From positions 434,001 to 498,000 of the forward strand of contig NZ_CP092520.1 of assembly GCF_022430525.1 (NCBI RefSeq): DNA of 64,000 bases, in the 5' to 3' direction. A model generated the notes under the pieces. It was given only the letters and a program-made list of their open reading frames with translations, was not told where the DNA came from and did not search any database. Position 1 is the stretch's first letter; every line of letters starts with the position of its first letter. Of the stretch, positions 15,816-52,092 are shown in pieces. The position numbers were made by a program, and so were the translations under genes. This stretch comes from Cetobacterium somerae (lineage in GTDB: Bacteria > Fusobacteriota > Fusobacteriia > Fusobacteriales > Fusobacteriaceae).

Positions 15816-15844
15816 TTTACATTCTCTTTTATTTCATGTATACT
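15816..15844 (+). promoter_or_regulatory. Promoter of the yjiH leader
   Basis: TTTACA (15816-15821) and TATACT (15839-15844) with a 17-base spacer; transcription would start near 15851, giving a 200-base leader. Confidence 0.75.
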
Positions 15845-15859
15845 TAACTGACAATTTAA

Positions 15860-15976
15860 ACAGAGGTTAGTTCACTTATATGTTTTGAGCCTAAGGCCGA
15901 TGGCGATGACGACATGTTCCTGTGAATTAAGTATTACGAAGCTGCCATAGTAATACGCTTAATAACATAAGTTCTC
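15860..15976 (+). ncRNA. Structured leader RNA, candidate riboswitch of unassigned class
   Basis: About 115 bases that are far less AT-rich than the surroundings. TTAGTTCAC (15867-15875) pairs with GTGAATTAA (15922-15930). ATGT (15880-15883) pairs with ACAT (15912-15915) inside it. GTATTAC (15931-15937) pairs with GTAATAC (15950-15956). The loops could kiss: ATGGC (15900-15904) with GCCAT (15944-15948). An alternative pairing ACTTATATGTT with AACATAAGT competes with the first stem. A terminator follows directly. I see no lysine, SAM, FMN, purine, M-box, Mn, T-box or c-di-GMP signature. Confidence 0.55.
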
Positions 15977-15984
15977 AATTCAGG

Positions 15985-16012
15985 CATACTTTTATTTAAA
16001 GTATGTTTTTTT
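15985..16012 (+). terminator. Conditional terminator in the yjiH leader
   Basis: CATACTTT and AAAGTATG (15985-16005) form an 8-bp stem with loop TATTT, followed by seven T. It lies 40 bases before the start codon, so transcription must read through it to express the gene. Confidence 0.85.
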
Positions 16013-16051
16013 ATTTGGCAGAAATTTTATAATTTCTGGAGGTTTTTTATA

Positions 16052-17374
16052 ATGGCAATACTAAAATTTGGTATTTATTCTTTCATAGGGCTTTTAGCAT
16101 TCTTAGCTCCTATTACAATTGGTGGTGAATCATCTATTATTATGGGTCACCTTAAAAACTTTGTTCTAAATAATTTTTCAAGTTGGGTTAATTTCTTAAT
16201 AATGTTTTGTTCTGTTATTACTATTACTGGAACAACTCTTGGATTTATCAAAAAGAATTTTAAAGAACAATACTTAAATGATTTATTCGTTACAGATAAA
16301 TTAAGTGGAATTTTAAGAATTGGTGGTTCTTTTATGTTCATTTTAATCTCACTTGGACTTGCCCCTGAATTTTTAAGTAATGAGAACACTGGTGGATTAA
16401 TGGCTGGAGATATGATTCCTCCTCTTATGGTTACTTTTTTCATAGGAGTTATGCTTATGCCACTTCTTACATCTTTTGGATTAGTTGAATTTATTGGAAC
16501 TTTAATCGCTCCAATTATGAGAAAAATATTTAAAGTTCCAGGATATGCCGCTATCGATGCTCTTGCGTCATTTCTTGGAGATGGAACTATTGGAATTGTA
16601 GTTACTGATCAACAATATCAAAAAGGATATTATACTCAAAGAGAAGCTGCAATTATTGCTACATCATTCTCAATAGTAGGAATATCTTTTGCTGCTGTTG
16701 TTGCTGATTTATTAAAATTTTCTAAAATATTTTGGATATTTTATGGAACTATTGCTTTTTCAACTATAATTGCTGGTTTTATAATTGCTAGATTACCTTT
16801 AAAAAAATTTAAAAACGAGTATTACGAAGGTAATAAAGTTGATGATAGTGGAGCTAGAAGTTTTGCTGAAGCTCTTCACTTAGCAACTACTACAGCTGGT
16901 AAAGCATCTGAAAAAGAGATTGTTGTGGATTCTCTTTTTAAAGTTTTAGTTATCTATGTAACTTTTATTCCTGTTATTATGTGTGTTGGATCTATTGGTT
17001 TAGTTATTGCAGAAAATACTAGCTTCTTCAATATTCTATCTATGCCTTTAATGCCTATTTTAAGAGGATTAGGCTTTACTCATGAAGTAGCATCACAAAT
17101 GGCTCCTGCTATGATTGTTGGTTTTTCTGATATGTATCTACCTGCTTTATTTATTGAAAATACAACAAGTGAAGTAGCTAGATTTATAGTTGGAACGCTT
17201 TCTTTCGCACAATTGATATTCTTAAGTGAAACTGGTATGATTCTTGTTAATTCAAAAATGGGATTCTCTATATTAGATGTAGCTAAATTCTTTATTTTAA
17301 GAACTGCTATTACATTTCCTGTTATTTATTCTATCGCTATGATACTTGTTAAATTTGGAATTTTAAGTTATTAA
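16052..17374 (+). CDS. YjiH family membrane protein (nucleoside-recognition/Gate domain)
   Basis: A 440-residue integral membrane protein with roughly ten hydrophobic segments. FIYS-like starts, the LAPEFLS loop, the central SFLGDGTIGIVVTDQQY and the C-terminal MIVGFSDMYLPALF match YjiH proteins, which carry the Gate (nucleoside recognition) domain and are thought to be transporters of unknown substrate. The start ATG follows CTGGAGG. It is a single gene between a leader terminator and a following terminator, so the leader RNA is its only visible control. Confidence 0.85.
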   Translation: MAILKFGIYSFIGLLAFLAPITIGGESSIIMGHLKNFVLNNFSSWVNFLIMFCSVITITGTTLGFIKKNFKEQYLNDLFVTDKLSGILRIGGSFMFILISLGLAPEFLSNENTGGLMAGDMIPPLMVTFFIGVMLMPLLTSFGLVEFIGTLIAPIMRKIFKVPGYAAIDALASFLGDGTIGIVVTDQQYQKGYYTQREAAIIATSFSIVGISFAAVVADLLKFSKIFWIFYGTIAFSTIIAGFIIARLPLKKFKNEYYEGNKVDDSGARSFAEALHLATTTAGKASEKEIVVDSLFKVLVIYVTFIPVIMCVGSIGLVIAENTSFFNILSMPLMPILRGLGFTHEVASQMAPAMIVGFSDMYLPALFIENTTSEVARFIVGTLSFAQLIFLSETGMILVNSKMGFSILDVAKFFILRTAITFPVIYSIAMILVKFGILSY

Positions 17375-49679: not shown

Positions 49680-49721
49680 AAGTCATAATTTATAGTTAAT
49701 ACATCTATAAATATTATATCT

Positions 49722-49805
49722 TGCTACTTCCCTACGCTAGAATTAACTAGATCAGGTTCAAAGGGTCAGTTCAAAACTTCTCAGCCTAATGGCTCCCCTA
49801 GTAAA
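49722..49805 (-). ncRNA. TPP riboswitch (THI element)
   Basis: Read leftward, TACTAGGGGAGCC, GCTGAGA, GACCCTTTGAACCTGATCTAG and the closing GCGTAGGGAAGTA give the full thiamine-pyrophosphate aptamer. With excess TPP the terminator forms and thiDM are switched off. Confidence 0.97.
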
Positions 49806-49827
49806 CTTTTTTTATTCTCTTGAAAAC

Positions 49828-51979: not shown

Positions 51980-52004
51980 TTGATTAACTCCCAATTTACT
52001 TTTA

Positions 52005-52067
52005 CTTATAGTACCAAATTTAAGGTTTGGTGTAGAAACTTTTGGCCATATCCCAAATATATATAAG
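52005..52067 (-). ncRNA. Purine riboswitch, guanine class
   Basis: Read leftward: P1 CTTATA pairs with TATAAG. P2 TTTGG/CCAAA carries loop GATATGG. J2/3 is GTTTCTAC. P3 ACCAAA/TTTGGT has loop CCTTAAA. The specificity position in TACTAT is C (equivalent to C74), which pairs with guanine; adenine riboswitches have U there. The downstream terminator makes it an OFF switch. Confidence 0.93.
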
Positions 52068-52092
52068 CTTTAAATAAATATTTCACAAAATA

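Follow-up and report, generated by a model that had tools for sequence, protein, structure and literature searches.

The yjiH leader of Cetobacterium somerae

The DNA considered here is a stretch of 64,000 nucleotides from Cetobacterium somerae (contig NZ_CP092520.1, positions 434,001 to 498,000; henceforth the window, whose numbering is used below), in which a structured leader precedes yjiH, a gene coding for a membrane transporter. We propose, with a probability of roughly 0.5, that this leader is a member of a novel class of riboswitches, shared by Cetobacterium and a small number of related Fusobacteriaceae, which is likely to respond to arginine and to act by transcription termination. 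The leader extends over approximately 15863-16012 and comprises a structured stretch (15863-15976), with a promoter upstream and a terminator downstream:

15816-15844, + strand: promoter TTTACA-17-TATACT, read in the sequence; other copies inspected share this layout
15863-15866, + strand: P1 5' strand GAGG (partner 15973-15976); inner pairs conserved, one further pair changes from A-U to U-A
15867-15875, + strand: P2a 5' strand UUAGUUCAC (partner 15922-15930); two-sided changes in 5 pairs
15879-15885, + strand: P2b 5' strand (partner 15911-15916); 6 of 6 pairs with a two-sided change in some sequence
15887-15909, + strand: kink-turn and apical P2c, reading GA(15887-15888)-GCC-L2-GGC-3 nucleotides-GA(15908-15909)
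15892-15901, + strand: loop L2 UAAGGCCGAU, inside P2c
15931-15956, + strand: P3 hairpin, 100% paired; two-sided changes in 4 pairs
15938-15949, + strand: P3 loop L3, 12 nucleotides, near-invariant GAMGCUGCCAUA
15957-15972, + strand: P4 hairpin GCUUA/UAAGU (loop 15962-15967); U-A becomes C-G in two sequences
15973-15976, + strand: P1 3' strand UCUC
15982-16012, + strand: intrinsic terminator (hairpin 15982-16008 and U tract)
16038-16042, + strand: Shine-Dalgarno GGAGG, read in the sequence
16052-17374, + strand: yjiH, 440-residue membrane transporter with the Pfam Gate domain (PF07670), annotated as "YjiH family protein" in C. somerae NZ_CP143320.1

An original prediction, made from the letters of the window, had described this promoter, two main helices and a terminator about 40 bases upstream of the yjiH ATG at 16052, all of which are recovered, the two helices being P2 and P3, with P1 and P4 coming on top. 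The unusually balanced base composition that it had remarked upon is likewise borne out, as the core (15867-15957) has a G+C content of 40.7% against 27.7% for the window, and only 1.8% of 91-nucleotide stretches are as G+C-rich. Folding of the single sequence is modestly unusual relative to shuffled versions (z = -2.5 with the terminator), and the still weaker value without the terminator (z = -1.4) is what could be cited for the view that these are chance hairpins in an AT-rich leader. The argument against chance is hence comparative rather than drawn from single-sequence folding: paralogous and orthologous copies exist and covary, which refutes that view and leaves it a negligible likelihood. 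Leaders of the first type of yjiH, and these only, possess a second conserved hairpin (GGCAGAAATTT...AATTTCTGG, 16017-16042), which abuts the Shine-Dalgarno sequence; pairing of its GGCAG with the CUGCC in L3 would be possible.

Distribution of the RNA family

Searches with the leader as a blastn query of a sample of 98 Fusobacteriota genomes recovered its orthologues along with paralogues within the same genome. A covariance model (R1), derived from an alignment (A1) of 19 distinct sequences, detects 45 copies in 17 of the 98 genomes, namely all 12 genomes of Cetobacterium, two of group g2, two of the seven of g5 and one of the three of g11. The scores are cleanly split, no real copy scoring below 68 bits and no other match above 22 bits, and a promoter and a terminator are present at every real copy inspected. 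The family extends beyond yjiH leaders: the C. somerae genome contains five copies, the most in any genome (C2:449867, which is the yjiH leader, C1:106898, C1:128759, C1:130554 and C1:1281652). Contig C2 (705 kb) probably corresponds to replicon p1 of C. somerae (664 kb, NZ_CP143320.1), which would place the yjiH leader copy on a large second replicon; the RNA is 99.1% identical in the p1 record.

The RNA is absent at the yjiH orthologues of five g5 genomes and of genomes G053, G054 and G059. A pattern scan of 85,000 species gave real matches in Fusobacteriaceae only; matches in other phyla were rejected as the covariance model does not fit them, and one viral match, in a tail-gene region, was rejected for its noise-level score. 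The covariance model likewise recovered no copy from 399 genomes of the phylum to which a Ruminococcus match belongs, a phylum that offers no positive control. The original prediction had seen no likeness to common riboswitch classes, and this holds: neither the yjiH leader nor any of seven other leaders has an Rfam match at E<=10, and none of 4227 Rfam families matched at or above its gathering score, including those of lysine and SAM-I, so that a lysine-type assignment is set aside. Likewise, yjiH was not found linked to a riboswitch in the literature, and in the portions of articles available the word "riboswitch" occurs alongside Cetobacterium in isolated mentions only and the phrase "arginine riboswitch" only in passing. 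We regard it as practically certain that this is a real, conserved and previously undescribed cis-regulatory RNA.

Structure and covariation

The core alignment, comprising 27 distinct sequences fitted to the covariance model, covers helices P2a, P2b, P2c and P3; 97.8% of its cells are paired and 16 of the 25 pairs display two-sided changes. None of 500 shuffles reaches these values on any of five measures, and slid controls have 27-46% of cells paired. An independent MAFFT alignment gives 96.1% pairing with 14 two-sided pairs, and none of 500 shuffles matches it on four of the five measures, while RNAalifold predicts essentially the same helices. The full-length leaders add P1, P4 and the terminator, whose helix covaries; conservation prevails in P1 and P4, each of which has a single pair with a two-sided change, and the second-yjiH copies lack the sequences of both. 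P1-P4 form a four-way junction in which hardly any junction base is left unpaired. The internal loop of P2 matches the kink-turn consensus 5'-NC-GA-C / C-NNN-GA-NC with tandem G.A pairs: the first GA is present in 27 of 27 sequences, the second in 26 of 27, and the spacer after GGC is always exactly 3 nucleotides. In Cetobacterium sp. 2A, P2c reads ACC/GGU instead of GCC/GGC.

Covariation among homologous leaders, on which the original prediction had let its proposal of a candidate new riboswitch depend, is thus strong in compensatory changes, and together with the want of an Rfam class it supports that proposal; the detailed pairing is to be replaced by the four-way junction with a kink-turn. 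A 5-bp kissing interaction between ATGGC and GCCAT shows no covariation, its U-A pair being broken in 7 of 19 sequences (U to C or G, the partner A fixed), and is not confirmed, since GGC of ATGGC pairs with GCC of GAGCC in P2c. Similarly, an alternative helix that was to break the first stem is no better in the yjiH leader than in shuffled sequence (z of about +2). L2 (UAAGGCYGAY) and L3 are almost invariant, and a contact between GGC of L2 and GCC of L3 is possible. In the YfcC copy (L031, minus strand, G000:C1:130554) most of P2a is gone whereas the kink-turn, L2, P3 and L3 are kept, so that this copy has either degenerated or adopted a variant of the architecture.

The loops and internal loops hold approximately 40 near-invariant positions across about 91 nucleotides, which, with the terminators in cis, exceeds what a typical protein-binding hairpin needs. 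This bears on the possibility that the leader is the binding site of a regulatory protein or small RNA acting by antitermination in trans: proteins too bind kink-turns, and the element is common to several unlinked operons, but no regulator gene is consistently linked to it, and we consider such a role improbable. The RNA is instead probably a riboswitch, one that would sense a small molecule.

Comparison with known riboswitches

SAM-I riboswitches (RF00162) contain a four-way junction, a P2 kink-turn of nearly the same letters (GGA-stem-loop-stem-GAU-GA) and a tertiary contact of L2. The P2 kink-turn in a four-way junction is found in the new RNA as well, which points to shared architecture and not to membership, as it has no RF00162 match, its targets are not methionine genes and its L3 is not a SAM-I feature. 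Lysine riboswitches (RF00168) resemble it in the turn motif of their P2, and their L2 kisses L3, as the two loops may do in the new RNA. Ordinary lysine riboswitches, scoring 97-119 bits, occur in all these genomes and, where inspected, precede lysC (aspartokinase) and an NhaC-type permease; they are therefore alike in controlling amino-acid genes in the same genomes and in having an NhaC-type permease as a target. However, they fold as a five-helix junction of about 180 nucleotides, as against four helices in about 115 nucleotides, and the new RNA yields no Rfam match where the true ones score highly. According to the part of its description that is available (PMC11109978), the trpB motif, an orphan candidate of Firmicutes and Fusobacteria, is comparable as a fusobacterial element of the 5' untranslated region of amino-acid transporter genes with a terminator; going by that text it stands apart from the new RNA, which consists of P1-P4 and a terminator and occurs in Fusobacteriaceae only.

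Genes downstream of the RNA

The RNA precedes two paralogues of yjiH, the first with the Pfam Gate domain and the second followed by genes for a YheO-like regulator with PAS and helix-turn-helix domains and a 2-oxoacid ferredoxin oxidoreductase, or for an amino-acid ATP-binding cassette (ABC) transporter. The other targets are an NhaC-type transporter with argH (TIGR00838, 605 bits), a YfcC-type transporter that scores as a putative antiporter of basic amino acids, and a secreted hydrolase of the AstE/AspA type. At one locus (L213, G003:C11:192806-194530) the match to the hydrolase gene is split in two and group II intron domains (RF02004, RF00029) lie nearby, so that the gene may be interrupted by an intron. 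Divergent YjiH homologues occur in apparent histidine-utilization operons of genome G038 (L140, L145), which suggests that YjiH is a family of amino-acid transporters with varied substrates.

Arginine as the candidate ligand

Arginine is made by the product of argH, and most genomes with the RNA also have argG. In groups g4 and g5 the orthologous NhaC-argH operon (transporter 68-71% identical) is found without the RNA, and has instead a terminator and a short reading frame that contains arginine codons; the encoded leader peptides include MLLRHERHGISNL, MLLRRESQGISNL, MLLRRERQGISKL, MKLRQRHIIIII and MLNIRTRRIRIKFNN..., and further ones from genera without the RNA are MLNIRTRRIRIKF... and MKLRQRH.... 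In genomes G053 and G054, yjiH itself shares its operon with argH and with genes for an amino-acid ABC transporter and an opine dehydrogenase. The G053 operon has two arginine-rich leader peptides, MLKLRRRRIRRSRTK... and MRKIRMRHRRTKNRISV, the second situated between yjiH and the M20 gene, and the leader peptides of these two genomes also include MLMNSRIRERKL...; among them are the two most arginine-rich of the 648 short frames preceded by a ribosome-binding site in the fetched loci. The loci are as follows (SBP, solute-binding protein):

L182-L185, L187, L188, about 240 nucleotides upstream of the NhaC-type gene: NhaC-argH arginine leader peptides
L139, minus strand, 3528 and 6667 of the reverse complement: G053 leader frames, operon ABC-yjiH-M20-SBP-opine dehydrogenase-argH
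L138, minus strand, 3400: one G054 leader frame

Leader peptides with runs of arginine codons followed by terminators indicate that arginine is the signal on the operons of these relatives. Since arginine thus seems to govern these operons in the relatives, it is simplest to suppose that the RNA responds to it as well, and from this comparison of regulons we give arginine or a close metabolite about an even chance of being the ligand. The attenuators of the related Fusobacteriaceae act on the same operons (NhaC-argH, yjiH-argH) and also place a terminator before the first gene, but they depend on stalling of the ribosome on arginine codons, as opposed to a folded aptamer. That the new RNA might itself be an attenuator dependent on a leader peptide or a tRNA (ribosome stalling or a T-box) could be argued from these relatives; yet the copies read show no leader frame, the yjiH leader having only ATG TTT TGA, no T-box match was obtained, and conservation tracks helices and loops rather than codons, making it very unlikely. 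In Cetobacterium, the SBP-argG operon has a conserved leader peptide of 33 residues, MTMRR(V/I)LRT..., followed by a terminator (L159, L157, L155, L160; G000:C1 near 1229376), which is likely to be an arginine attenuator distinct from the new RNA.

A riboswitch of the same build could alternatively respond to a different amino acid or metabolite (histidine, ornithine, citrulline, aspartate/fumarate or an opine, for instance) or to Na+. The targets are mostly secondary transporters, those of the NhaC and YfcC types couple to ions, the G038 homologues of YjiH lie in apparent histidine-utilization operons, and the hydrolase and the oxidoreductase do not readily fit arginine. Against this, leader peptides with arginine codons serve the yjiH-argH and NhaC-argH orthologues of relatives, and lysine is already served by its own riboswitch; a different ligand is accordingly the less likely option, though the strongest competitor to arginine.

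Proposed mechanism and significance

For an arginine-responsive riboswitch, we posit that the kink-turn would bend P2, letting L2 lie against L3 of P3, with P1 closing the junction immediately upstream of the terminator. When the ligand is plentiful, P1-P4 would be stabilized and the terminator would form, switching off transport and arginine genes; when it is scarce, an alternative pairing using strands of P2 or P3 might block the terminator. This OFF direction would fit the targets, as they are genes for import and biosynthesis. Second-yjiH leaders alone offer a plausible switching partner (z of about -2), in that the loop and 3' strand of P3 can pair with the stretch before and within the terminator (GACGCU/AGCGU, AUAACAAU/GUUAU).

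Several observations weigh against this proposal. In most copies the 5' arm of the terminator is no more complementary to the aptamer than shuffled sequence is (mean z = +0.3), and the putative L2-L3 contact, being invariant, lacks support from covariation. Several targets, namely the hydrolase, the 2-oxoacid ferredoxin oxidoreductase and YfcC, are not obviously arginine genes, and no arginine leader was found at YfcC relatives in other genera. Furthermore, the family is narrow and the kinship of its sequences inflates some statistics, and that the RNA itself binds a ligand is something we infer, which is a point in favor of a protein or small RNA site.

The available part of a 2017 survey names only glycine, lysine and glutamine, among biologically encoded amino acids, as having known riboswitches (PMC5584792). 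We tentatively suggest, at somewhat less than even odds, that the RNA is the first natural bacterial arginine riboswitch, in which a kink-turned four-way-junction aptamer replaces ribosome-based arginine attenuation of the same operons within one family. If true, this short list would clearly gain by an arginine class, which would be nature's equivalent of synthetic arginine aptamers, and one bacterial family would have exchanged leader-peptide attenuation for riboswitch control of orthologous operons. With another ligand, the RNA would still be an undescribed class with good support, of which a bacterium common in the fish gut has as many as five copies per genome. In either case, the class suggests functions for the YjiH, NhaC-type and YfcC-type transporters.

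Elsewhere in the window, Rfam identifies ordinary cobalamin, thiamine pyrophosphate (TPP) and purine riboswitches (238-417, 49712-49809, 51989-52086).
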